A stretch of DNA of 64,000 nucleotides. It comes from Crossiella sp. CA-258035. GTDB lineage: Bacteria > Actinomycetota > Actinomycetes > Mycobacteriales > Pseudonocardiaceae. The notes beneath the pieces were generated by a model. The model searched no databases, was not told the origin of the DNA, and saw nothing but the letters and a program-made list of their open reading frames with translations. Made by a program: the position numbers and the translations under genes. The number at the start of each line of letters is the position of its first letter. Positions within the stretch are counted from its first letter, which is position 1. The stretch covers positions 1,397,001 to 1,461,000 of the forward strand of contig NZ_CP116413.1 in the NCBI RefSeq assembly GCF_030064675.1, read 5' to 3'. Below, one piece after another: positions 1,952-27,588 of this stretch.

Positions 1952-4900
1952 GTGGCGGCCTTGGGCGCAGAGCGGGCGAAGAACGGCAAGGCGGGGGCAC
2001 TGATCGCCACCGCCTGGCAGCTTCGTTGGCGTGCGCCGGAGCTGAGCCGGATGCTCAGCGAACGGGCCGCCGAACTCGCCGTCGCCGACGGTGACGAGCA
2101 CACCCGCCTCCGGGCCGAGACGCTGACGCTGTTCGCGCTCAACCGTCTCGGCCAGGGGGTGGTCGTCGCCGAACGCGCGGTGGCCTCGCTGCGGGCCGCC
2201 GAGGCCCTGGACGAGACCGAGCTGGCCTGGCGGCTGCGGGTCGAACTGGCCAACGCGGCCAGGGTGGTCGGCGCGCCGCTGACCGGTTTCGCCGTGCTCC
2301 GCCCCGTGCTGGAGGCGGGCACGGCGCCCAAGGGCCTGCGCGCGGCGGCCATGGTCCAGCTGGTGGACTGCCTGGCCCACCTGGGCAGCGTGCCGGAACT
2401 CACCGAGGCGCTGGCCGAGGCCGACCAGCTCTACGGCGAGGACCCGGACCTGGAGCCGGACATCGTGCTGGTGCTGCGCGGCCTGCTGCACTCGGTGGCC
2501 TCGGCGCACCACCGCCGCTGGGGCGACCTGCCCGCGGCGGTGCACGCCGCCAGGGAGGGCCTTGCCCTGCTGGACCAGCTCACCGACCCGGCAGCCGACA
2601 GCGGCCACGCCCGCGCCCGGCTGATCCTGCAGCTGGTGTGCGCCCTGCTGGACTCCAACCGCCCCGGCGAGGCGCGGTCAGCCGCGTACGACCTGCTCGA
2701 GCAGGCGGTCCGCGCCCCGGTCGCCTCCAGCGTCGGCTGGATCCGGCTGGCTCTGGCCACCCGCCTGTACCTGCCTTCCGGCCAGCCCGAGCTGGCCGCC
2801 GAGCTGCTCGGCGCCACCGCCGACTCGGCCCAGCGCCACGGCCTGGAGCCGCTGCTGGCGGAAAGCCTGACCGCGCTCGCCCACGTGCACGAGATGGGCG
2901 GCGACTACGCGGACGCGCTGTCCTGCCTGCGCACGGCCTACGCCGCCGAACGCAGGCGGCAGCGCGCGGTGCACGCGGTCCGGGTCGCGCTGATCGAACA
3001 GATCCCGGTGCCCCAGTTGCACGGCGAGACCGCGGCCGGCCTGCGCGAGCAGGTCACCGCGATGCTGCGCCGGGGCCGGGTGCGCAGGGACACCCCACGC
3101 GGCGCGGTCCCGATGCTGCGCCGCACCGCGGCCGAGATCGACGACCTCACCGGCCTGCTGAACCAGAGCGGCTTCCGCCGCAGACTCGACGCGGTGGTCA
3201 ACGGCGGCGACCCCGGCCACGCCCTCACCCTGGTCCTGTTCGACGTCGGCAAACTTGACGAGACCGCGCCGCACCACGTCAGTGAGCAACTGCTGCGCAC
3301 GGTCGCCGACCGCGTCCGCGACACCGCCCCGCAGCAGGCCGCCGTGGCCCGCGTCGGCGGCGAGGAGCTCGCGGTCCTGCTCCCCGGCGCCACCCAGGAC
3401 CAGGCCCAGCGCTGGGCCGAACAACTCCGCACCGAGGTCGCGGGCCTGTCCCCAGCGCTGCCGGTCACGGTGAACACCGGCGTCGCCCAGCACCGCCCAG
3501 GCACCAGAGCCGACGTCCTCATCACCGAGGCCGACCGCGCCCTGGCCCGAGCCAAACACGCCACCACCCCCCCTCGCTTCCGCGCCGCCGACCTCCCCAC
3601 CCCAGCCCGCCGCGCGAACACCAACGACCACCCACCCACCACCCACCGCGCCCCCGTCACCAGCGACTTCGCCACCGCCCCCCGCGAGGCGCCAACGGCG
3701 GATTCCCCCACTCCCGCGGCAGCCACCCACCAGCTGACAGGCGAGTTCACCACCCCAGCCGCGGCCCACCGCCAGTCGCCACCGAGCGACTTCACCACCC
3801 CAGCCACAACCGCCCACCACACTCCGTCGAGCGGGCACACCACCCCCACTGACCAAACCCCGCCCAGCGGCTTCACCAGCCCCGCTGCCGCCACCGGTCA
3901 GGCCCTGCCACGCGATTTCGCCACCTCCACTGCCGCGACCGGTCAGCAGCCGCCGGGCGATTTCGCCACCTCCACCGAGGCCACCGGCCAGGCTCAGTCG
4001 ATCGAGTTCGCTACTTCCGCCGCGGCCATCCGCCAGGCTCCGTCGGACGATTTCGCCACCCCCGCCGAGGCCACCGGCCAAGCTCAGCCGGACGATTTCG
4101 CTACCTCCGCCGCAGCCACCAGTCGGGCTCCGTCGATCGAGTCCGGCACTCCCGCCGCGGCCACTGACCAGACTCCGCCGGACGATTTCGCCACCCCGAC
4201 CTCGGTCACCGGCCAGACTCCGCCCGACGAGTTCAGCACCCCGGCAATGGCCACGCACCACATGTCATCCGGCGAGTTCCGCATCCCGGCAGCCGCCGAC
4301 CACCAGGCGCCATCCGGCGAGTTCTCCGCACCGGCGGCAGCCACCCACGCGGCATCGACCGGCGAGTTCCCGGCCGTCACCCGCCCCCAGCCCACCAGCG
4401 AGCCCGACCCCGCGCCCCCGGCAGGCCAGCACGCGGCTTCCACCGGCGAGCCCGAGTCAGTCCCCACCGGCCACCGCCAGCCCACCCGAGCCGAGACCAC
4501 CGGCACATCGCCGGCTCGCGCCACCACCGGCGAGTTCCCGGCCCCGGCCGACAACTTCTCCGCACCCACCCGCGCCGCCGACTTCCCGGCCCCGGCCAGC
4601 CGCGCCGCAACCACCGGCGAGTTCGACACCCCCGCCGCGGCCACCACCGGCGAGTTCCCCGCCCAGCCAGCCACCCGCACCCCCACCGGCGAGTTCCCGG
4701 CCCCGGCCGCCACCCGACCCACTCCCGCCGAATCCACCGGCAGCCACGCCCGCCCTGACTCCACCGGCCGCCGGGTCGCCCCGGAAGCCAGGTTCGCCGC
4801 GTTGCCGCCCATGGAGCACCCGGTGCCGGAGCCGGAGGCGCTCGGGCAGTCCGAGGCGCCGTTGTTCTTCGAGGCCCCGACCGCGCCGCAGCCGATCATC

Positions 4901-6517
4901 ACCGACCAGACGCCGCGGCCGGCCGAGCTCGACGCGGCCGCGTTAACCGGGTCGCGGCCGGTGGCGGCGGAACCGGTCGCGGCGCCAGCGGACTTCGCGT
5001 CGGTGCGGGCGGCCACTGTCGACTACGACGAGCCCGCGCCCGAGGTCACGCCGGAACCGGAGCCGGAAACATCCGCCGAGCCGGAGCCAGCCCCGCGGCC
5101 CGAACCCGAACCGGTGGCCGCCGAGCCGCCCGTTGCCGAGGAACCGGCGCCGGCCCCGGAAGTCCGGACGCGGCGCAGGTCCTCGTCGCTGGCGGAGGCG
5201 TTGGACTTCGACTGGGCGCAGGCGTTGCGGGACACCGAGCCGGAGACCGGGTACGAGCCCGCGCTGCCCCCGCCGCCCCGGTCCGCCGAACCCCAGGCCG
5301 ACATCCCGGACCGGACGGCCGAGCGCCAGGGAGCGGCGCGGCGCCAAGAGGCCCCGCGCCAGGAGCCCGCACACCGGGAGGCCGGGCACCGGGAGTTGGG
5401 GCACCAGCAGTTCGGGCACCACGAGGTCAGGCATCAAGAGGCCGGGCACCGGGAACCCGGGCACCAAGAGACGGCGCACCAAGAGGCCGGGCGCGAGGAG
5501 GCGGCGCACCAGGATCCCGCGCACCAGGACGCCGGGCACCGAAACGCCGCGCACCAGGATCCCGGGCACCGGGACGGCGTGCACCAAAACGCCGGGTACC
5601 AGGACGCCACGCACCGAGAATTCGGGCACCGGGACGGCGTGCACCAGGAGTTCGCGCAGCCGGAGCCGCGGCACCCGGACCTCGCCCCGCGGGAGTCCGA
5701 GCCAGCCGAGCACCTGCCCCCCGAGGCCGCCCCGCACCCGGACCTCATGCCCCGCGAAACCGAGCCCGCCGACCAATCCCCAACCTGGTCCGACACCTCG
5801 GCAGACGCGCCCGAACGCCGGTCCCGTGGTGACGCCAAGCTCGCCGAACTGCTCGCCGAGGCCCTCGCCGCCTACGAGACCGGCCGCCGCGAGGACCCCG
5901 AGACCGACTACGCCGACCCGGCCCCCAAACCGGAAAGCGCTCCCGAGCCCCCGGCACCCGCCTACCCGGGCAACGAACCGCCCCGCCCCGCCTACCCAGC
6001 CTCAGCGGAGCCCATCTACCCGCCCGCCGCCAGCTACCCCGCCTCAGCGGCACCCGCCTACCCAGGCGAATCCAGCTACCCGGCCGATTCGAGCTACCCC
6101 GCCTACCCCAGCGACCCGGCCACGCCCTCCTACCAGCGCAACCAGCCCAACCCCCCGGTCACCATCATCGGCCCCACCACCCCGGCCGACCTCCTGCACA
6201 ACCGGATCACCGTCCACCGCGCCGAGACCAGCGGCTACCACCAGCCCGTGCAGCCCCCGCCGCCCGAGGACGACGACGGCCCCTTCACCGGTCGCTGCGG
6301 CCCCCAGATCACCGGGGCGCCCGATCCGTTCGCTGGGCCTGAGCCGGATCCGTTCGGGTATGCCAGGGCCATGGATGCCACCGTGAATGCCTCGATGCTG
6401 CCGGAGCCGCCGCGCTATCCCGAGGTGGAGGACCCGACCGAGCCGCAGCCGCGGGTGGTCGACGGGCCCCGGGAACAGGCGTGGACGCCGCCGAAGCGGG
6501 ACTCGTCCTTCGGGTGA
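1952..6517 (+). CDS. TPR-like/GGDEF-domain protein with a very long repetitive tail
   Basis: A 1521-residue protein starting at GTG 1952, just behind ettA. Residues 1-380 are alpha-helical, Leu/Ala-rich and TPR-like. Residues about 395-540 form a diguanylate-cyclase fold starting near a DDLTGLLNQ segment, with RVGGEEL at about 465-471 in place of the canonical GG(D/E)EF. The terminal Leu makes cyclase activity uncertain. From about 560 to the end the chain is low-complexity: roughly 18-residue Pro/Thr repeats, then acidic Pro-rich sequence, then 19 His-rich pentapeptides (1140-1234), then Tyr-Pro repeats (about 1330-1390). No signal peptide or membrane segment is seen. The first third may sense partners and the tail is likely disordered. 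The function is unknown beyond possible cyclic-di-GMP signalling. Confidence 0.8.
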   Translation: MAALGAERAKNGKAGALIATAWQLRWRAPELSRMLSERAAELAVADGDEHTRLRAETLTLFALNRLGQGVVVAERAVASLRAAEALDETELAWRLRVELANAARVVGAPLTGFAVLRPVLEAGTAPKGLRAAAMVQLVDCLAHLGSVPELTEALAEADQLYGEDPDLEPDIVLVLRGLLHSVASAHHRRWGDLPAAVHAAREGLALLDQLTDPAADSGHARARLILQLVCALLDSNRPGEARSAAYDLLEQAVRAPVASSVGWIRLALATRLYLPSGQPELAAELLGATADSAQRHGLEPLLAESLTALAHVHEMGGDYADALSCLRTAYAAERRRQRAVHAVRVALIEQIPVPQLHGETAAGLREQVTAMLRRGRVRRDTPRGAVPMLRRTAAEIDDLTGLLNQSGFRRRLDAVVNGGDPGHALTLVLFDVGKLDETAPHHVSEQLLRTVADRVRDTAPQQAAVARVGGEELAVLLPGATQDQAQRWAEQLRTEVAGLSPALPVTVNTGVAQHRPGTRADVLITEADRALARAKHATTPPRFRAADLPTPARRANTNDHPPTTHRAPVTSDFATAPREAPTADSPTPAAATHQLTGEFTTPAAAHRQSPPSDFTTPATTAHHTPSSGHTTPTDQTPPSGFTSPAAATGQALPRDFATSTAATGQQPPGDFATSTEATGQAQSIEFATSAAAIRQAPSDDFATPAEATGQAQPDDFATSAAATSRAPSIESGTPAAATDQTPPDDFATPTSVTGQTPPDEFSTPAMATHHMSSGEFRIPAAADHQAPSGEFSAPAAATHAASTGEFPAVTRPQPTSEPDPAPPAGQHAASTGEPESVPTGHRQPTRAETTGTSPARATTGEFPAPADNFSAPTRAADFPAPASRAATTGEFDTPAAATTGEFPAQPATRTPTGEFPAPAATRPTPAESTGSHARPDSTGRRVAPEARFAALPPMEHPVPEPEALGQSEAPLFFEAPTAPQPIITDQTPRPAELDAAALTGSRPVAAEPVAAPADFASVRAATVDYDEPAPEVTPEPEPETSAEPEPAPRPEPEPVAAEPPVAEEPAPAPEVRTRRRSSSLAEALDFDWAQALRDTEPETGYEPALPPPPRSAEPQADIPDRTAERQGAARRQEAPRQEPAHREAGHRELGHQQFGHHEVRHQEAGHREPGHQETAHQEAGREEAAHQDPAHQDAGHRNAAHQDPGHRDGVHQNAGYQDATHREFGHRDGVHQEFAQPEPRHPDLAPRESEPAEHLPPEAAPHPDLMPRETEPADQSPTWSDTSADAPERRSRGDAKLAELLAEALAAYETGRREDPETDYADPAPKPESAPEPPAPAYPGNEPPRPAYPASAEPIYPPAASYPASAAPAYPGESSYPADSSYPAYPSDPATPSYQRNQPNPPVTIIGPTTPADLLHNRITVHRAETSGYHQPVQPPPPEDDDGPFTGRCGPQITGAPDPFAGPEPDPFGYARAMDATVNASMLPEPPRYPEVEDPTEPQPRVVDGPREQAWTPPKRDSSFG
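3640..4740 (+). repeat. Degenerate 18-residue repeat region in the GGDEF protein
   Basis: About residues 563-930 of the GGDEF protein repeat a loose pattern of the type ATGQ-x-P-x-(D/E)FATP-x, later shortening to TTGEFPAPA-type units. At DNA level the units are about 54-60 bp and imperfect. The tract is Pro/Thr/Ala-rich and predicted disordered. Coding is supported by the uninterrupted frame over more than 1 kb. Confidence 0.75.
5369..5653 (+). repeat. Nineteen tandem His-rich pentapeptides (15-bp units)
   Basis: Residues 1140-1234 of the GGDEF protein are 19 consecutive five-residue units of the form (A/G/V)H(R/Q)(E/D)x, for example AHREA, GHREL, AHQDP and GHRDG. Position 2 is His in 17 of 19; the exceptions are GREEA and GYQDA. 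The DNA is a 15-bp tandem repeat, a likely site of copy-number change. The His/acid spacing could bind metal, which is inference. Confidence 0.85.
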
Positions 6518-19003: not shown

Positions 19004-19627
19004 CTAGCTACCCCCTTTCATCGTCGAGATCACCATCTCCGCGACCTTGTCCGCCAGCGCGCAGGGCGCCTTGTACTCAGGGGCCTTCTGGTCACCGGTG
19101 AGCACCACGACGTTGAGGATCACGTTGTCGTTGACGCCGGTCACCCCGCCGCAGTCACCCGAGTCGAACGGGACCGACTCGTTGGTGTGCGCCGACGGGT
19201 AGCCGGCGACCGTGGTCTCCTCGAAGTGCTTGTAGGTGCTCCGGTCGGCGTAGATCTTGTTCAGGCCGCCCTCGGTCTTGCTGTTGAGGTTGACCCCGAT
19301 CGAGCCGGTCAGGCTCTGGCCAGGGCTGGCGTCCACGGTCCAGTTGCAGGTCTCGCCCGCGGGGGTGGACCGGGCCTTGCCCGGCTTGGTCACCCGGAGC
19401 TGCCCGGTCTGGGCCGAGGTGAGCAGTTCGCAGGTGCGGCCGTCCCACTTGGCCGCGTCCAGCTTGGGCTGGGTGATCGCCGGGGCCTGGCCCTTGCTGG
19501 AGCTGGGAGCGGCGGTGGCACTGGCCGAGGTAGGCGCGGGCGTCTGCCCGGAGCCACCGCCGGAGCAGCCGGCGACGGCTGCCAGGCAGAGCCCGGTGGT
19601 CAGTGCGATCAGAACCTGCCGGCTCAC
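19004..19627 (-). CDS. DUF3558-domain lipoprotein
   Basis: A 207-residue exported lipoprotein. The N-terminal hydrophobic segment ends in a lipobox, LAAVAGC, with the lipidated Cys near residue 21. A Ser/Thr/Ala-rich linker follows, then a DUF3558-type domain containing CELLTSAQTGQL, CNWTVD and a late Cys pair (SGDCGGVTG, APCALAD). DUF3558 proteins are common companions of PPE/EspG genes in Pseudonocardiales. The GTG start overlaps the stop of the upstream gene by 4 bp (GTGA), so translation is coupled. Confidence 0.85.
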   Translation of the reverse strand: MSRQVLIALTTGLCLAAVAGCSGGGSGQTPAPTSASATAAPSSSKGQAPAITQPKLDAAKWDGRTCELLTSAQTGQLRVTKPGKARSTPAGETCNWTVDASPGQSLTGSIGVNLNSKTEGGLNKIYADRSTYKHFEETTVAGYPSAHTNESVPFDSGDCGGVTGVNDNVILNVVVLTGDQKAPEYKAPCALADKVAEMVISTMKGGS

Positions 19628-20031
19628 TGCGCCTTGCCTCCAAGCTTGGTGTTCATCTCTTCCGCGTTCGCATAGCCCTGCTTGACCGCGTCGAGGTTGC
19701 GCACCATGTTCTCCAGGGCCTCGCGGTACTGCTTGTTGGCCTGGCCGTGGCAGCCCGCCTGGTCCAGCGCGCGCTCGGTGATCTTCTCGACGGCGACCGC
19801 GCTGTAGGGGTCGCGACCGGGGGCGGCCAGCTGGCGCAGCTGCCGGGCCTCCTGCTCGATCAGCTTCAGTTCCTCGATCGCGTCGTTGAGACCGTCGATC
19901 GCCTTCTGCACATGCGCCTTGTCGACCTTGAACTTGCCGCCGGTCTTCGCCGAGGAGTAGTCGGTCGAGTAGTGCTGATTGAGCCTCGCCTGCCCTGGCG
20001 AGATATCCGCATCCGGATCCCGTGGCGGCAT
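19624..20031 (-). CDS. Small helical protein of the ESX cassette
   Basis: A 135-residue, charged, alpha-helical protein without signal peptide or WXG motif, first gene of the leftward ESX cassette. Its heptad-like Leu/Ile pattern (about 40-70) and second helical block (about 90-125) suggest a helical hairpin of the PE/Esx type that could pair with the PPE-like protein downstream; this is inference. I recognise no named domain. The 181-bp gap before it should contain the promoter of the cassette. Confidence 0.65.
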   Translation of the reverse strand: MPPRDPDADISPGQARLNQHYSTDYSSAKTGGKFKVDKAHVQKAIDGLNDAIEELKLIEQEARQLRQLAAPGRDPYSAVAVEKITERALDQAGCHGQANKQYREALENMVRNLDAVKQGYANAEEMNTKLGGKAQ

Positions 20032-20212: not shown

Positions 20213-22312
20213 TCACTGTCCGCCGAAGGTCAGGCCGGTGGCATTGGCCAGGAAGGACAGGGTGTCGGCGGTCAGTGAGACGGTGCGGGAGATCGAGCGG
20301 GTGCTGTGGCCCACGTCGGTCTCGCGGCGGAACAGGATCGGGTGGGTGGCCGGGTCGCCGCTGGTGGCCGCCTGCAGGGCGGCGCACATCTTGCGGGCGT
20401 GGCAGGGGTCCACGCGGGAGTCGGACTCGAAGACGGTGAACAGCACCGCCGGGTAGGCCACGCCCGGCCGGACGTGGTGGTACGGCGAGTAGGACAGCAG
20501 CCACTCCAGCTCGCCCGGGTCGGCGGCCGAGCCGTACTCGTCCTTCCAGATGCGGCCGATCAGGAACTCCTCGTAGCGGACCATGTCCAGCAGCGGGGCC
20601 GAGCAGACCACCGCGCGGTACAGCTCGGGGCGCTGGGTGATCGCCGCGCCCATCAGCAGGCCGCCGTTGGAGCCGCCCTGGATGGCCAGCTGCGGGCTGG
20701 TGGTCCAGCCGGTGGCGATCAGGTGTTCGGCGGCGGCGTGGAAGTCGTCGAAGGTGTTCTGCTTGTTCGCCCGCATGCCGCCCTGGTGCCAGGCCTCGCC
20801 CTCCTCGCCGCCGCCGCGCAGCGAGGCCAGCGCGTACACCCCGCCCGCCTCGACCCAGGCCAGCGCGGAGGCGCTGTAGGACGGGGAGTAGCTGATGGAG
20901 AAGCCGCCGTAGCCGCCGAGCAGGGTGGGCCGCGGCCGGTCCGGCTCGGCGGCGGGGGAGAGCACGAACATGTGCACGGTGGTGCCGTCGGCTGAGGTGT
21001 AGGCCAGCTGCCGGGTGTGCACCGGGGGCACCTCGACCGAGCCGGGCGCGGACTCCAGCAGCTCGGTGACGCCGGTGGAGCGCACGTGCCGGTGCACGCT
21101 GGGCGGGGTGACGAAGTCGGTCCAGCCGATCCACAGCGTGTCCGCGTCCGCCGTGGTGAGACTGTCCACTGTGGAGAGTCCGTGCACGGATCCGGTGCCG
21201 GGCAAGGGGATCTGGGTGAGGTGGCTGCCGTCGGCCGGATCGTGCAGGTGCACCTCGGAGACCGCGTGGCGGCTGCGCAGCACGGCGAGCGAGCCGTCCA
21301 GCCAGCGGGCGGTCTCCAGCACCGAGCCGGGGTCCTCGGCGATCAGCTCGCGCCAGTGCTCCTGGCCGGGCTCGGCCGGATCGGCCACGCACAGCCGCCA
21401 GCGCGGGGCGCCCAGGGTGGTCAGCAGGTAGAGCCTGCCGTCGCGCTCGACCCAGGCGGTGCAGTAGGCGCTGTCCACCTCGTCCACGATCTGGCGCAGC
21501 TTGCCGTCACCGGCCAGGTCGGCGATCCAGACCGACTCCTTGGGCGCGGTGCCGGGGGTGGCGTCGACCACCAGCCAGCGCCCGTCGGCGGACAGGCGCA
21601 CGCCGTAGTAGTTGGTCTTGTCCAGGCCCTCGCCGTGCACCAGCTCGTCCTTGGCCGGGTCGGCACCCAGCCGGTGCCGCCACACCCGCCGGTGGAACAG
21701 CTCCTCGCCCGCGGGCACGGCCTCCGGTGCCAGGCGGCGGACGTAGTACAGCTCCTCGCCGCCGGGCAGCCAGGCGATCGGGGAGTTGCGGGCCCGGTCG
21801 ATCGGCCCGTCCAGCACCCGGCCGGTGGCCACGTCGACCACGTGCAGCTGGGACTCCTCGTCGCCGCCGCTGGAGAGCAGGTAGGCGAGCTTGTCGCCCT
21901 CCAGGCTGGGCACCCAGTAGTCCAGGGTGGTCAGGCCGGAGGGGTCCAGCGCGGCCACGTCGATCAGCGCGCGCTCGCTGCAGTCGGCCTCCCGCACGTG
22001 CAGCACCGAGTGCTCCTGGCCGGGCAGGCGGCGGGTGAAGAAGGCCCGGCCGTTGCGCCAGAACGGCGCGGACACCGACCCGGACCGCAGCAGCGTGCCG
22101 ACCCGCTCGGCCACCGCGGCGCGACCGGGCAGCTCCGCCAGCAGCGGGCTGACCAGCGCGTCCTGCGCGGCCGACCAGGCCTGGGTGCGTTCATCGGCGG
22201 CGTCTTCGAGCCAGCGGTAGGGGTCCGGCACCCGGTGTCCGTGCAGCTCGTCGACCAGGTCGAGGCGCTCGGCGGGCGGGTAGGTCGAGGCTGCGGGACG
22301 CGACTGGCTCAC
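20213..22312 (-). CDS. Prolyl oligopeptidase family serine peptidase (S9A)
   Basis: A cytosolic serine peptidase of 699 residues, the usual length for prolyl oligopeptidase. It has an N-terminal PYRWLED segment, a central beta-propeller (about 75-420) and a C-terminal alpha/beta-hydrolase domain. The nucleophile is Ser548 in GGSNGG, the acid is in the SDSRVDP segment near 635, and the base is His669 in DVGHS. It cleaves short peptides after proline. The start is GTG 22312. It is transcribed away from the HNH gene; a 154-bp divergent promoter region separates them. Confidence 0.93.
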   Translation of the reverse strand: MSQSRPAASTYPPAERLDLVDELHGHRVPDPYRWLEDAADERTQAWSAAQDALVSPLLAELPGRAAVAERVGTLLRSGSVSAPFWRNGRAFFTRRLPGQEHSVLHVREADCSERALIDVAALDPSGLTTLDYWVPSLEGDKLAYLLSSGGDEESQLHVVDVATGRVLDGPIDRARNSPIAWLPGGEELYYVRRLAPEAVPAGEELFHRRVWRHRLGADPAKDELVHGEGLDKTNYYGVRLSADGRWLVVDATPGTAPKESVWIADLAGDGKLRQIVDEVDSAYCTAWVERDGRLYLLTTLGAPRWRLCVADPAEPGQEHWRELIAEDPGSVLETARWLDGSLAVLRSRHAVSEVHLHDPADGSHLTQIPLPGTGSVHGLSTVDSLTTADADTLWIGWTDFVTPPSVHRHVRSTGVTELLESAPGSVEVPPVHTRQLAYTSADGTTVHMFVLSPAAEPDRPRPTLLGGYGGFSISYSPSYSASALAWVEAGGVYALASLRGGGEEGEAWHQGGMRANKQNTFDDFHAAAEHLIATGWTTSPQLAIQGGSNGGLLMGAAITQRPELYRAVVCSAPLLDMVRYEEFLIGRIWKDEYGSAADPGELEWLLSYSPYHHVRPGVAYPAVLFTVFESDSRVDPCHARKMCAALQAATSGDPATHPILFRRETDVGHSTRSISRTVSLTADTLSFLANATGLTFGGQ

Positions 22313-22466
22313 GATCGGAACAGTACCGATACAGGCTTGTCACTCCACCGGTTAGCCGCTCGTTCACCGTAGATTCGGGCGAGCCTGCCCGACACGTTAC
22401 AGATCACAGGTGCGCGAATAGCGCATTATGTGGTCGACTACGTGTTGACCCGGTGGAGGTGGTCGC

Positions 22467-23132
22467 GTGCCCGACCGACAACCGACTCCCATCGGCGTAG
22501 CCGGTGGGCAGACGCCGCGGGTCCGTTCGTCCTCGAACGGGGTCCCGCCGGCCTTGGCCGCGTGCGTTCCTGTGCCTGCGCAGGAACGGGCGGCCCCTAG
22601 CGAGACGACCCCTGGCTGGGGCCGACGCCGTGTGTTGTTGCTGAATGCCACCTTCGAGCCGCTGACGGCCCTCCCGGTGCGCCGAGCGATCGTACTTCTT
22701 GTCTGCGGCAAAGCGGAAATCGTCCATGGAGACACCGCCGGCCTGCAGGTTCACTCCGCCAGCGAGACCGTCGCGGTGCCCTCGGTGATCAGGTTGAGCA
22801 CTTTCGTCCGGGTGCCCTACCGAGGCCGCATCCCGCTGACCCGCGCCGCCCTGATGCACCGCGACCGGTTCCGCTGCGCCTACTGCGCCGGCCGGGCCGA
22901 GACCATCGACCACGTGGTCCCGCGCAGCAAAGGCGGCCAGCACACCTGGGAGAACACGGTCGCCTGCTGCGCCAGGTGCAACCACCGCAAGGCCGACAAG
23001 CTGCTCAGCGAGCTGGGCTGGCGGCTGCGGGTGGTGCCGAGGACCCCGCGCGGACAGCACTGGCGCCTGCTCGCCGGTGTGCCCGACGCGGACCCGCAGT
23101 GGCTGCCCTACCTCGGCGAACCCGCCGCCTGA
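22467..23132 (+). CDS. HNH endonuclease-family protein (Rv2469c-like)
   Basis: A 221-residue protein. Residues 50-120 form the conserved RRVLLLNATFEPL...IPLTRAAL domain seen in actinobacterial Rv2469c-type proteins. The C-terminal HNH fold has a CAYC pair, DHVVPRSKGG, WENTV and a CARCN pair, so a structural zinc and a His-metal finger nuclease site are present. The biological target is unknown. The start is GTG 22467, with GGAGGT 6 nt upstream. It converges with the GVRIS gene, only 9 bp between stops and no hairpin between them. Confidence 0.85.
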   Translation: MPDRQPTPIGVAGGQTPRVRSSSNGVPPALAACVPVPAQERAAPSETTPGWGRRRVLLLNATFEPLTALPVRRAIVLLVCGKAEIVHGDTAGLQVHSASETVAVPSVIRLSTFVRVPYRGRIPLTRAALMHRDRFRCAYCAGRAETIDHVVPRSKGGQHTWENTVACCARCNHRKADKLLSELGWRLRVVPRTPRGQHWRLLAGVPDADPQWLPYLGEPAA

Positions 23133-23141
23133 CCCGGTCGT

Positions 23142-23921
23142 TCAGGCCGCCACGGCCAGCGCGGGGGCCTGGGCGCTGATCCGCACGCCATCGGCGGCGC
23201 TGATGCGCACGCCGTCGCGAGCGCTGATGCGAACCCCGGCGCGCCCGGAGATCCGCACGCCCGCCTCGCCGCTGATGCGGACGCCGTCGCGGGCGGAGAT
23301 CCGCACCCCGCGCTCAGCGCCGCTGATCCGCACCCCGGCCTCGCCACTGATGCGAACCCCGGCCTGACCGCTGATCCGGACACCGTCCTGGGCGGAGATG
23401 CGCACGCCCCGCTCGGCCCCACTGATCCGCACGCCTGCCTCGCCGCTGATGCGGACGCCGTCGCGGGCGGAGATGCGCACGCCCCGCTCGGCCCCGCTGA
23501 TCCGCACCCCTGCCTCGCCGCTGATCCGCACACCGTCCCGGGCGGAGATCCGCACGCCCCGGTCCACGCCGCTGATCCGCACACCCCGCTCCGCCGAGCT
23601 GATCCGCACCCCACGCTCGACCCCGCTGATCCGCACCCCCGAAGCCGCACTGATGCGCACTCCGCGATCGACTCCGCTGATGCGCACGCCGTCACGCACC
23701 GTGTCCGCCGAGCTGATCCGGACACCCGCCCGGCCGCTGATCCGCACCCCTGCGTGACCGGAGACGCAAACGTCATCAACGGCGCTGATGCGTACCCCGG
23801 CGCGCCCGCTGATCCGGACGCCATCAAAGTTGCTGATGCGCACGCCTGCATTGCGGATGAGTGACCGCTTACCCGAACGGGTGTGGTCGTTGCTCTGTTC
23901 GAGAGTCTTGATATCCGACAT
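23142..23921 (-). CDS. GVRIS octapeptide-repeat protein, no known family
   Basis: A 259-residue protein starting at ATG 23921, with GGGAG 9-13 nt upstream. A 25-residue leader (MSDIKTLEQSNDHTRSG then KRSLIRNA) is followed by 26 exact GVRIS pentapeptides and one degenerate DVCVS, each followed by a linker of usually 3 or 4 residues, giving 8- or 9-residue units; the tail is AQAPALAVAA. Linkers fall into classes G-x-A, A-x-D and (G/S)-x-(E/D)-R. There is a single Cys, almost no aromatics and no signal peptide or membrane helix. Alternating V and I around R suggests short beta strands, perhaps a beta-roll or solenoid; a multi-core peptide precursor is another idea. I do not recognise the family and no modifying enzyme is adjacent. 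Confidence 0.85.
   Translation of the reverse strand: MSDIKTLEQSNDHTRSGKRSLIRNAGVRISNFDGVRISGRAGVRISAVDDVCVSGHAGVRISGRAGVRISSADTVRDGVRISGVDRGVRISAASGVRISGVERGVRISSAERGVRISGVDRGVRISARDGVRISGEAGVRISGAERGVRISARDGVRISGEAGVRISGAERGVRISAQDGVRISGQAGVRISGEAGVRISGAERGVRISARDGVRISGEAGVRISGRAGVRISARDGVRISAADGVRISAQAPALAVAA
23175..23846 (-). repeat. Array of 27 GVRIS units (24-27 bp each)
   Basis: Residues 26-249 of the gene. In the middle (23310-23558) units combine into a higher-order 25-residue block made of ARD, GEA and GAER linkers, repeated three times with one extra octad in the third. GVRIS itself is encoded with several Gly, Val, Arg and Ser codons; Ser alternates between AGC and TCC. The repeat is therefore conserved at protein level and not as identical DNA. 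Confidence 0.9.
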
Positions 23922-24236
23922 GTTGGCGTCTCCCATCGGTGGGATGCTGCTCTGCGTGGAAGAGTCTGCGTGCACAAGACCCGGATAGGTGAAAAGTAGA
24001 AGCCTGGCTCCCCGCAGACAAGCCGCCAAAGCGGCCGCCATTTGCCGCTGTTCGGATCGGGGCCGACTGGCCCAGTGAGCTGGGCCGGTCGAGTGGCTTC
24101 GGGGCCGTGGTGCGTCGCGGGTCACACTTCCGGGTTACCTTCCGCGGCCTCCGGCCGAAACCTGGCGAATACCCGCGAACGGCCGCACGGGGACCACTGC
24201 CAGCGCAGCCGGGACGCACCATCTACAGTTGCCGCC
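23922..24236. other. Divergent intergenic region between the GVRIS gene and ctaJ
   Basis: 315 bp without a convincing gene. It holds the candidate GVRIS promoter (23993-24021) and a hairpin TGGCCCA-n6-TGGGCC near 24067-24086. Open frames that cross it on either strand lack ribosome-binding sites and coding bias. Confidence 0.6.
23993..24021 (-). promoter_or_regulatory. Candidate promoter of the GVRIS gene
   Basis: On the minus strand TTGTCT (24021-24016) and TACTTT (23998-23993) are separated by 17 nt, an acceptable housekeeping-sigma promoter for an actinomycete (TTG-n at -35, TAnnnT at -10). It would start RNA near 23986, leaving a leader of about 65 nt before the ATG. Prediction by eye. 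Confidence 0.4.
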
Positions 24237-24491
24237 GTGACCGTCCTGGAGACCATCCTCGTCTTCGCGGGGATCCCGTTGGCGCTGTACCTCGGGATCA
24301 CCCTGCTGACGATGTGGCCTAACTCCAGCCGGGGCCAGCGCTACCGGCCCGGCCAGGAGTGGCCCCACGAGCCCGTGTGGTGGAGTGCCAACCCCGCCGG
24401 CCTGACCACGTCTGCCGCCGCCGCGGCGCAAGACAACGAGGCGGCCGCGACCGCCGTCACCGCTCGGGGAGGTGCCCGTGGCAACTGGTGA
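24237..24491 (+). CDS. ctaJ: Probable cytochrome aa3 oxidase accessory subunit CtaJ
   Basis: An 84-residue protein: one N-terminal membrane helix (residues 5-27, beginning VLETILVFAGIPLALYLG), then a conserved RYRPGQEWPHEPVWWSANP block, then an Ala-rich tail. This matches the small subunit CtaJ found in the mycobacterial III2-IV2 respiratory supercomplex, whose gene, as I recall, lies in M. smegmatis beside the DUF5130 gene and the HNH gene, as here. The start is GTG 24237. Its stop overlaps the next gene, so the two are coupled. The assignment rests on the motif and gene order. Confidence 0.65.
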   Translation: MTVLETILVFAGIPLALYLGITLLTMWPNSSRGQRYRPGQEWPHEPVWWSANPAGLTTSAAAAAQDNEAAATAVTARGGARGNW

Positions 24492-24957
24492 GGTGGCGAC
24501 CCGCGTCGACCCCGAGGACCTGGCCTTCGGCGAGGCGCTGATGCCGCACGGCCGGGTCTCCTCGGCCAGGCACATCAGCGACAACGGCCCGAAGCTGCCG
24601 TTCAGCCCGACCCAGCTGGCCACCCTGGACGAGGCGCTGACCCTGTCCAGCCGCAGCTCCGGCCTGGACTTCAGCATCTACCTCGGCGACCTCGGCGAGG
24701 ACACCCGCGCCCGCGCGGAGCAGCTGCACGGCTCCCTCGGCACCAAGGCGGCCAACGCGGTGCTGATCGCGGTGTCCCCCGGCCAGCGCGTGCTGGAGAT
24801 CGTCACCGGCGCGGAGTCCGGGCGCAGGCTGGCCGACCGCGGCTGCAAGCTCGCGGTGATGAGCATGGTCGCCTCCTTCAAGGAGGGCGACCTGCCCGGC
24901 GGCCTGGTCAGCGGACTGCGCATGCTGGCCGACCAGGCCGGTCCCAAGCAGCACTGA
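24478..24957 (+). CDS. DUF5130 (TPM-like) protein, Rv2468c-like
   Basis: A 159-residue actinobacterial protein with the DUF5130/TPM-like fold: LPFSPTQLATLDEAL near 40, a DFSIYLGDLGED region, and KAANAVLIAVSPGQRVLEIVTG near 95-115. TPM domains of related proteins act in photosystem repair or as phosphatases, but the function here is unknown. I chose GTG 24478 (GGGGAGG at 24466-24472) over GTG 24472, which has no spacing. It overlaps ctaJ by 14 bp. A strong hairpin follows the stop. Confidence 0.8.
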   Translation: MATGEVATRVDPEDLAFGEALMPHGRVSSARHISDNGPKLPFSPTQLATLDEALTLSSRSSGLDFSIYLGDLGEDTRARAEQLHGSLGTKAANAVLIAVSPGQRVLEIVTGAESGRRLADRGCKLAVMSMVASFKEGDLPGGLVSGLRMLADQAGPKQH

Positions 24958-25026: not shown

Positions 25027-27588
25027 TCAGGAGCGGTCGAACTCACGGGCGGCCAGCGCCCGCACGATGCCCGCGCGGCCCTCGTTCACCAGGCGGAGCA
25101 GGGCCGGCGGGTGCTCGCCAGCGGCGATCCAGGCGTCCGCGGCCTTGACCGTGGCCTCCTCCACCGCCCAGGACGGGAACAGTCCGATCACCACCGGCAT
25201 CGCCCGGTCGCTGCCGCGGCGCTGCCACACCTCGGACACCTCGGCGAAGTAGCGGCCGGTGTAGCCGGCCAGCAGCTCCTTCTGCCCGGGGTGGGAGAAG
25301 CCGTTGATCAGCGACTCGTTGGTGGAGTTGGACAGCTCGTCGTCGTGCACGGCCCGCCGCCAGGTCTCCGCCTTGTTCTCCTCGGTCGGGATCAGCGCGG
25401 TGGCCAGCTCCGCCTGCCGCTTGCCGGTGGCGGTGGCGTCCCGCGCCAGCTCGGCGGCGATGTCGGTGTCGTCGGCGCGGGCGTGTGCCACCAGGGCACG
25501 GAGGATCCGCCAGCGCAGGTCCGCGTCCACGGTCAGGCCGTCCAGCACGGCGGTGCCGTCGTACCAGCCCTGCAGCACGGCCAGCTCGACCTCACCGAGC
25601 ACCGAGGAGGTCAGCGCGTTGGCGAAGGCCAGCTGGTGGTCCGAGCCCGGCTCCGCGGTGCTCGCCAGGTCCAGGACGCGGGTGGAGAAGCGGGACCAGC
25701 CCTCCGGCCGCCACGCCGGGTCGGCGTAGGAGGACAGCGCGGTCTGGGCCTGCGCGAGCAGCCGCTGCACCACGCCGACCTCGGTCTCGGCGTGCACGCC
25801 GCCGAGCACCAGGGTGACGAAGTCGCGGGCCTTCAGCTCGGCCTCGCGGGTCATCTCCCAGGCCGCCGACCAGCACAGCGTGCGCGGCAGCGGCTCGGTG
25901 ATGTGCGCGATCCGGTCGATCAGGGTGACCAGCGAGTCCGGGTCCAGCCGCATCGTGCAGTAGGTGAGGTCGTCGTCGTTGACCAGCACCAGCTTGCCGC
26001 GGTGCACGCCGACCAGCTCGGGCACGTCGGTGCGCTCGCCGTCCACGTCCACCTCGACCCGGTGCACCCGCGACAGCTTGCCGTCGGCGTCCTCGTCGTA
26101 GATGCCGATGGCCAGCCGGTGCGTGCGCAGCTCACCGGCGCCGGGCCGGGCGCCGCCCTGCAACACCGCGAACCTGGTGAACCTGCCGTCCGCGCCCACC
26201 TCGAACCGGGCGCGCAGCGAGTTCAGCCCGGTGGTCTGCAGCCACTGCGCGCTCCACCAGGACAGGTCCCGGCCGGATGCCTGCTCCAGCGCGACCAGCA
26301 GGTCGGCCAGGGTGGCGTTGTCCCAGGCGTGCTTGTCGAAGTACACCCGCAGCCCGGCCAGGAAGTTGTCCAGGCCCACGTAGGCCACCAGCTGCTTGAG
26401 CACGCTGGCGCCCTTGGCGTAGGTGATGCCGTCGAAGTTGACCTCCACGGCCTCCAGGTCGGGCATCTCGCAGGCGACCGGGTGGGTGGAGGGCAGCTGG
26501 TCCTGGCGGTAGGCCCAGGACTTCTCGATGTTGGCGAAGGAGGTCCAGGCGTGTTTGTACTCGGTGGCCGAGGCCTGCGCGAGCACACTGGCCCAGGTGG
26601 CGAAGGACTCGTTCAGCCACAGGTCGTCCCACCAGCGCATGGTGACCAGGTCGCCGAACCACATGTGCGCCATCTCGTGCAGCAGCGTCTCGCACCGGCG
26701 CTCGTAGTCGTAGCGGGTGACCCTGGAGCGGAAGATGTACTCCTCGCGGAAGGTCACGCAGCCCGCGTTCTCCATCGCGCCCGCGTTGAACTCCGGCACG
26801 AAGCACTGGTCGTACTTGCCGAACGGGTAGCGCACCCCGAAGGCGTTGTTGAAGAACTCGAAGCCCTGCTTGGTCTCGGTGAACAGCCGCTCGTGGTCGG
26901 CGAACTCGGCCAGCGAGGCGCGCACGTACAGCCCGAGCGGGATCTCGCCCTCGCTGTCGGTGTAGACGTCGCGCCACTCCGCGTACGGACCGGCCACCAG
27001 CGCGACCAGGTAGGTCGACATCGGCTTGGTGGTCTCGAAGACGTGCCGGACACCGCCGTCGACCTGCTCGGTGGACTCGGTGGCGCTGTTGGACAATACC
27101 TTCCAGTCCGCGGGCGCCAGCACGGTGAGCTGGTAGACCGACTTCAGGTCCGGCTGGTCGAAGCAGGCGAACATGCGCTTGGCGTCCGCGGTCTCGAACT
27201 GGGTGTAGAGGTACACCCCGTCGTCCACCGGGTCGACGAAGCGGTGCACGCCCTCACCGGTGTTCATGAACCGGCAGTCGGCCTCGATGACGAGCTCGTT
27301 GCGCTCGGCCAGGTTCGGCAGCGTGATCCCGTCCTCCTCGCGGAAGTCGGAGACGTCCAGCTCGACGCCGTTGAGCACGGCCCTGCGCACCCCGGCGGCC
27401 ACCAGGTCGACGAAGGTCTGGGCGCCGGTCTCACGGCTGGCGAACCGCACCGTGCTGGTCGAGCGGAACGTGTTCTCGCCCGGCCCGCCCGCTCCGTCGG
27501 TGAGGTCCAGCTCGATCGCGTAGGACTCCACCTCCAGGAGGGCGGCACGCTGCTGTGCCTGCTCGACCGTGAGGTTCGGTGCGGCCAC
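25027..27588 (-). CDS. pepN: Aminopeptidase N (M1 metallopeptidase)
   Basis: A cytosolic zinc aminopeptidase that removes N-terminal residues from peptides downstream of Clp and proteasome degradation. 853 residues, the size of Streptomyces lividans PepN and Rv2467. The substrate-anchoring GAMEN is at 270-274, the zinc site HEMAH at 304-308, and the third ligand Glu is in the following WLNESFATW. The C-terminal ERAP1-like helical domain occupies about 530-840. The start is GTG 27588, preceded by GAGGTGA. It is divergent from the DsbA-like gene over a 167-bp promoter region. Confidence 0.95.
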   Translation of the reverse strand: MAAPNLTVEQAQQRAALLEVESYAIELDLTDGAGGPGENTFRSTSTVRFASRETGAQTFVDLVAAGVRRAVLNGVELDVSDFREEDGITLPNLAERNELVIEADCRFMNTGEGVHRFVDPVDDGVYLYTQFETADAKRMFACFDQPDLKSVYQLTVLAPADWKVLSNSATESTEQVDGGVRHVFETTKPMSTYLVALVAGPYAEWRDVYTDSEGEIPLGLYVRASLAEFADHERLFTETKQGFEFFNNAFGVRYPFGKYDQCFVPEFNAGAMENAGCVTFREEYIFRSRVTRYDYERRCETLLHEMAHMWFGDLVTMRWWDDLWLNESFATWASVLAQASATEYKHAWTSFANIEKSWAYRQDQLPSTHPVACEMPDLEAVEVNFDGITYAKGASVLKQLVAYVGLDNFLAGLRVYFDKHAWDNATLADLLVALEQASGRDLSWWSAQWLQTTGLNSLRARFEVGADGRFTRFAVLQGGARPGAGELRTHRLAIGIYDEDADGKLSRVHRVEVDVDGERTDVPELVGVHRGKLVLVNDDDLTYCTMRLDPDSLVTLIDRIAHITEPLPRTLCWSAAWEMTREAELKARDFVTLVLGGVHAETEVGVVQRLLAQAQTALSSYADPAWRPEGWSRFSTRVLDLASTAEPGSDHQLAFANALTSSVLGEVELAVLQGWYDGTAVLDGLTVDADLRWRILRALVAHARADDTDIAAELARDATATGKRQAELATALIPTEENKAETWRRAVHDDELSNSTNESLINGFSHPGQKELLAGYTGRYFAEVSEVWQRRGSDRAMPVVIGLFPSWAVEEATVKAADAWIAAGEHPPALLRLVNEGRAGIVRALAAREFDRS

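Follow-up and report, generated by a model that had tools for sequence, protein, structure and literature searches.

In pentapeptide repeat proteins (PF00805), such as MfpA and Qnr, tandem five-residue units form a solenoid. Other coils are built by the left-handed β-helix hexapeptide proteins (Hexapep, PF00132; LpxD, NeuD, DapD) and by the secretion domains of HxuA and EtpA and by Cthe_2159, which we take to be right-handed parallel β-helices. DUF2345 is presumably the C-terminal β-helix of VgrG. The β-helix of phage T4 gp5 is a trimer with a VxGxxxxx repeat (PMC4576200). Here we analyze a 64,000-nt stretch of Crossiella sp. CA-258035 (hereinafter the window; all coordinates are positions in it), in which a minus-strand gene encodes a protein made almost entirely of GVRIS units. 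The gene belongs to a real, selected protein family that sits at one locus, has a conserved promoter element and, in many members, ends like a tag of transfer-messenger RNA (tmRNA). The gene and its control region consist of the following features:

23142..23921, minus strand: coding sequence of the repeat protein, 259 aa, stop at 23144-23142 (translation and homologues)
23847..23921, minus strand: polar leader of 25 residues, predicted to be disordered (translation; predicted local distance difference test score below 50 for residues 1-30)
23175..23846, minus strand: array of 27 units, 26 GVRIS and 1 DVCVS (translation; AlphaFold2 strands)
23145..23174, minus strand: C-terminal tail AQAPALAVAA (translation)
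23930..23934, minus strand: GGGAG, probable ribosome-binding site, 8 nt before the ATG
23975..23995, minus strand: conserved 21-bp element TTTTCACCTATCCGGGTCTTG (comparison with relatives)
23993..23998, minus strand: inferred −10 element TACTTT (upstream-region comparison)
24016..24021, minus strand: inferred −35 element TTGTCT, 17 nt from the −10 element (upstream-region comparison)

Translation confirms the 259 residues, the 26 exact GVRIS units and the single DVCVS that an earlier note had read from the letters. The strict 8/9-residue period claimed there holds for 25 of the 26 unit-to-unit spacings (8 in 18 cases, 9 in seven) and is broken once, by a spacing of 12. While the unit residues remain constant, their Gly, Val and Ser codons vary: over the 27 units, Gly is encoded by GGC (12), GGG (9), GGT (4) and GGA (1), with GAC in DVCVS, and Ser by AGC (18), TCC (6) and AGT (3). 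Since the changes among these codons are synonymous, even between AGC and TCC at one and the same Ser, it is the protein and not the DNA that is held constant. The synonymous codons, together with GC fractions of 0.72, 0.60 and 0.85 at codon positions 1, 2 and 3 of the open reading frame (ORF), bear out the coding behavior described in the earlier note, and the placement of GGGAG fits its clear ribosome-binding site. A search of the window genome with the repeat protein returns a single match, and the repeat gene is apparently present once per genome. Opposite the array lies an antisense open frame of 119 residues with RTP repeats (23398-23757, plus strand), which high GC and repetition probably suffice to explain.

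The array cannot be ascribed to chance, because relatives share an array at the same locus; the earlier note had named absence of homologues in relatives, together with absence of transcription, as a refutation. With the window protein as query, 20 of 60 related genomes gave matches, and not all of these are true members: matches in G049 and G050 were rejected as low complexity, and a match in G004 (E 1e-4, outside the locus) was rejected as, by eye, part of a VgrG-type spike gene. A match to the HNH protein encoded next to the repeat gene, in convergent orientation, is present in 59 of the same 60 genomes, and the HNH gene was therefore taken as the anchor. Its best named match, in Crossiella sp. 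SN42 at 100%, places the window in Crossiella. With a repeat ORF defined as having at least 3 units of one kind and as lying convergent and downstream of the HNH match, 65 of 80 named loci contain one beside the same HNH gene, its end −1 to 334 bp, and once 576 bp, from the HNH match. No repeat ORF was detected in the remaining 15 named loci (seven Actinomycetospora, eight metagenome bins). Among the 36 Pseudonocardiaceae genomes of the anchor set, reading of the loci identified a repeat ORF in 32 and none in G005, G006, G007 and G030, and among the 12 genomes of other families for which flanks were fetched no repeat ORF lies within 1800 bp. In three genomes without a repeat ORF, the distance from the HNH match to the DUF5130 match is 301-370 bp.

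The apparent limits of the family depend on the query. A Lentzea member matched 20 of 394 genomes of the class, two of them inside Pseudonocardiaceae; among the other 18, the five loci that were read are unrelated low-complexity sequence and were rejected as members beyond the family Pseudonocardiaceae. The same query missed G035, a member of Pseudonocardiaceae with a GTRVT array; one unit form therefore does not detect the others. With a GTRVT query, 84 of 150 family genomes gave matches, some through low complexity (e.g., G005, 25% with 8 stops). An array of GQRERVR[IL] octapeptides in G050 (L020/L233; LADPDALT-like on the other strand) is unrelated to the repeat family and lies on a different contig from the best HNH match of that genome.

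The unit itself differs between lineages. In the named loci, GVRIS occurs in Crossiella and Saccharopolyspora; GTRVT in Amycolatopsis, Actinokineospora, Actinophytocola, Kibdelosporangium, Labedaea, Prauserella and Saccharomonospora; SVRIT in Lentzea, Saccharothrix, Umezawaea, Goodfellowiella and Solihabitans; GTRIT in Gandjariella; GVRIH in Streptoalloteichus; and GIRVN and GVRVN in Kutzneria. Further genomes of the anchor set contain GVRIE, GVRVT and GIRVT. The pattern [GS]-[VTI]-R-[VI]-polar is kept across lineages; specifically, 1166 units from 65 proteins, picked with a pattern in which [VTI]R[IV] is already fixed, have G or S at position 1 and T, S, N or H at position 5. In the 65 proteins, the spacings are 6 (423), 8 (293), 9 (244), 10 (48), 7 (38) and rarer others, the linkers vary in sequence and in length (1 to more than 10 residues, mostly 1 to 5), and the main unit is present in 3 to 51 copies per protein. 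Net charge ranges from −10 to +66, for which reason polyanion binding by rows of Arg was set aside as a universal role. A fixed three-unit super-period is found in two Actinophytocola proteins (L092, L105) and one Crossiella protein (L091), but is not shared. LRVVK of SspB, which resembles the unit, was dropped as a model of it; the string is absent from the papers among the matches listed. Three Kutzneria-type loci (L099, L145, L047) have only 3 GVRVN units and keep the promoter element and the leader; the proteins of L099 and L145 are 49 and 55 residues long.

On a tree of 80 HNH proteins, in which good support is limited to 26 of the 77 inner branches, eight unit labels (absence included) require 9 changes, compared with a minimum of 7 and with 42.6 for shuffled labels. 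We read this distribution as concerted evolution: the gene would have descended mainly vertically, with its unit now and then replaced throughout the array. A record named Nocardia sp. NRRL S-836 (L169), which has a Lentzea-type SVRIT array, falls within the Lentzea clade on this tree and is probably misnamed. Seven Amycolatopsis sequences, compared in 21 non-independent pairs, differ 51, 62 and 490 times at codon positions 1, 2 and 3; because 490 of the 603 differences fall at third positions, selection acts on the protein. The dN/dS ratio (nonsynonymous to synonymous) is 0.023-0.27, mostly near 0.1, with 9-30 synonymous and 0-5 nonsynonymous changes per pair in the repeat region. A Lentzea pair of equal length (L117/L122) has 23 synonymous and 19 nonsynonymous differences, and since it is unaligned for gain and loss of units it was not used as evidence.

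AlphaFold2 predicts the window protein to be a solenoid with one strand per unit and disordered ends, confidently in the best of five models only. The chain has 26 predicted strands, and from residue 130 onward each unit has a strand of five residues; in that best model the strands stack in regular coils, the hallmark of a β-solenoid. This agrees with the short β-strand per unit proposed in the earlier note, as does the alignment of solved β-helices to the model. By root-mean-square deviation (RMSD), the closest solved shapes are the HxuA domain (3.0 Å over 202 residues), Cthe_2159 (3.6 Å over 205) and the EtpA domain (4.3 Å over 221). Their sequence identity is 11-17%, and to our knowledge none of them is an array of one exact pentapeptide; the shared shape says nothing on function. 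Left-handed hexapeptide proteins have the highest Z, but their RMSD is 11-14 Å, as opposed to 3.0-4.3 Å for the presumed right-handed helices; a handedness read from these values is tentative. In this comparison with solved structures the absence of a family excludes none.

Consistent with the earlier view that the protein has no recognized family, Pfam and NCBIfam scans give no curated family that describes it. The sole Pfam match above its cut-off is Pirin_C_2 (32.8 vs 22.9 bits), for which no stretch passes alone, and NCBIfam yields nothing near any cut-off. Hexapep is not listed for the window protein at E up to 1, whereas the GTRVT form, with its period of 6, weakly matches left-handed hexapeptide proteins and a Streptoalloteichus GVRIH member exceeds the Hexapep cut-off (31.0 vs 27). 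PF00805, likewise not listed at E up to 1, shares tandem five-residue units and the predicted solenoid with the repeat protein but lacks the linkers that separate the units here. A description of the repeat family was not found in the open-licence literature, among the matches listed, and the main text of a paper on knotted solenoids contains neither 'Pseudonocardia' nor 'Actinomycet' (PMC13123833).

A stretch near TTTCACCTGTACGGGCCTTGC lies upstream of the ORF in all 65 named loci, 64 of which fit the pattern and one of which (L163) has a variant form. TTGNNN-N17-TANNNT is recognized upstream in 48 of the 65; by our own count, 38 of the 65 have the start of the element 70-74 nt ahead of the ATG in use. 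For the window gene, comparison with relatives alone gives TTGTCT-N17-TACTTT as a candidate for the plausible promoter of the earlier note; a consensus promoter scan of 22400-24600 reported none. The same scan found 2 terminator-like sites (0.6 expected), one of which (24019-24002, minus strand) lies inside the inferred promoter spacer. In the window genome, the 21-bp element is a single copy at up to 3 mismatches. At up to 2 mismatches, 145 of the 200 family genomes searched contain it, by our count 140 of them a single time and 5 two or three times, and a reversed control pattern is found in about 21; because 140 of the 145 positive genomes hold just one match, a regulon sharing the element was rejected. 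In a smaller set, 30 of 36 family genomes have the element at the repeat locus; G017 contains 2 additional weak matches, and 1 stray match occurs among 24 other genomes. G025 has about 15 GIRVT units at the locus (L075), yet no copy of the element genome-wide at up to 2 mismatches. Single-sequence folds of the 5’ untranslated region differ in appearance between relatives, and an Rfam scan of the window lists two tRNAs and nothing else.

The C-terminus resembles a degradation tag in many members. Specifically, 36 of 65 named proteins end in [FYL]xLA[AG], compared with 0 of 569 control ORFs, and 43 of 65 end in AA, compared with 32 of 569. The controls, drawn by a mechanical rule from the same 80 loci with a minimum length of 120 residues, include orthologues and, probably, spurious frames; shared ancestry is ignored in the Fisher values for the enrichment. 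The repeat proteins of many relatives end in [DE][FY]xLAA, and the tail is present in 9 of 18 genera by label, one label, 'Nocardia', sitting in the Lentzea clade. Of the 20 tmRNA tags sampled (16 from Pseudonocardiaceae, 4 from elsewhere in the order), 18 end in FALAA, one in FQLAA and one in YALAA. In E. coli, ClpXP degrades GFP-YALAA and not GFP-LAA, and the terminal Ala-Ala is needed most (PMC7652416); SENYALAA is sufficient on eGFP (PMC8512704). In M. tuberculosis, LacZ carrying an LAA-ending tag is lowered (PMC3613350), and ClpX and ClpC1 degrade ssrA-tagged model proteins (PMC4416901). The repeat proteins differ from tmRNA-tagged proteins in that the end is encoded in the gene itself, and degradation here is putative. 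The observation of the earlier note was right and its interpretation partly so; the family, the unit variants, the promoter element and the tmRNA-tag-like ends had escaped it.

The favored reading, which we hold with about as much confidence as doubt, is that the protein is a cytosolic β-solenoid rod kept short-lived by a C-terminal Clp degron. The dedicated conserved promoter would drive synthesis of the rod, predicted to be flanked by a disordered leader and tail. Each unit would form one strand, with residues 2 ([VTI]) and 4 ([VI]) packed inside; with the position-3 Arg and the position-5 polar residue facing outward, their side chains would form stacked rows on the rod. Such a rod would probably serve a repetitive partner as scaffold or as binding surface; it would be required only for a while, after which its tail, read by ClpX or ClpC, would bring about its removal. 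Cytosolic residence, Clp-dependent turnover and the scaffold role are all putative, and the binding role on its own is doubtful. The window protein ends in AVAA and so carries the terminal Ala-Ala of a Clp degron. Weighing the other way, it ends in LAVAA and lacks the full [FYL]xLAA end; among genomes of the same genus (G001-G003), two proteins end in QAALAA and one in FARAA.

Alternatives to the short-lived rod bear in part on the genes around it, four of which were scanned with Pfam:

22467..23132, plus strand: HNH protein, convergent neighbor and syntenic anchor (Pfam scan; homologue searches)
24472..24957, plus strand: DUF5130/TPM-domain protein, also a neighbor in several related loci (Pfam scan; relatives)
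25027..27588, minus strand: M1-family aminopeptidase (PepN-like), also a neighbor in several related loci (Pfam scan; relatives)
20213..22312, minus strand: prolyl-oligopeptidase-family protein (Pfam scan)

The rod could instead buffer or gauge the load on the Clp protease: steadily made and steadily destroyed through its tmRNA-tag-like end, it would accumulate once the protease is saturated with proteins truly tagged on stalled ribosomes, or would itself slow the protease. We consider this unlikely, and equally so its broader form, a lineage-wide proteolysis gauge that imitates the tmRNA tag and whose unit is rewritten between lineages under selection on strand geometry alone. The tails resemble the tags of the lineage in more than a short Ala end, and the promoter element is almost confined to the repeat locus where checked; but 29 of 65 proteins lack the xLA[AG] tail, and the gauge, its partner and its response are putative. 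Because other cellular proteins carry Ala-Ala degrons (PMC7652416), an Ala-Ala end alone does not make a sensor. If true, the gauge is the rival that would raise the importance of the finding most. Slightly less probable still is the earlier note's multi-core ribosomal peptide precursor, in which proteolysis would release repeated pentapeptide cores from behind a leader. A leader is indeed followed by near-identical cores that differ between genera, and leaders look alike by eye across several genera (M-x-T...Q...T-x-S). However, a precursor would be expected to have variable cores separated by constant cleavage sites, whereas here it is the unit pattern that is kept and the linkers that differ in length and sequence, and the intact array is modeled as a solenoid; with no conserved cleavage site, the proposal gained no support. 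Its companion remark, that no maturase or exporter adjoins the gene, stood: none of the four flanking genes is of that kind, and none is a modification gene.

It is in our view very improbable that the protein, as a relative of DUF2345, forms part of the spike or adhesin of a contractile injection system. VgrG and gp5 share with it short repeats of about 8 residues and the predicted rod-like β-helix, and 14 of 18 proteins of alignment A2 show profile resemblance to DUF2345. Three of 10 relatives (L114, L098, L165) pass the DUF2345 cut-off, a Lentzea member scores 69.9 bits against the cut-off of 30.7 and has type VI spike entries among its PDB matches, and the rejected G004 match falls in what looks like a spike gene. 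On the other hand, the window protein stays below the cut-off (26.0 bits), the match occurs in 0 of 18 proteins of the GTRVT alignment A3, a Pfam scan of the window protein finds no VgrG N-terminal domain, and no gp27/gp5-type domain was found in the repeat protein. Its unit has a conserved Arg, many members have tmRNA-like tails, and the four flanking genes are of other kinds, with no injection or secretion-system genes among them. Least credible of all, and already disfavored, is that the DNA repeat is non-coding, serves recombination or binding, and is open by chance. Repetition is visible at the DNA level too and opposite-strand frames stay open, but the codon-position differences over the 21 Amycolatopsis pairs (51, 62, 490) and the recurrence in relatives of the start with its Shine-Dalgarno-like sequence, the leader and the tail speak for a protein.

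Some further observations concern other genes of the window. Over its HNH part, the HNH neighbor matches IscB and Cas9d models, far under their cut-offs. A 135-residue ORF at 19624-20031 (minus strand) looks by eye like a helical WXG-type protein. At 1952-6517 (plus strand), a 1521-residue ORF has an apparent GGDEF-type region, judged by eye, followed by degenerate tandem repeats, which are TGEF/ATGQ-rich and then HREPGHQE-like and overlap 45-bp and 15-bp arrays.

In most sampled Pseudonocardiaceae, the repeat gene stayed by the same neighbor while its unit changed several times. The near confinement of the promoter element to this locus suggests a dedicated regulator, and the tmRNA-tag likeness, being encoded in the gene, makes programmed turnover of the putative rod directly testable. 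The exchange of units at one locus is a natural experiment on which sequences are able to build the same strand with short linkers.
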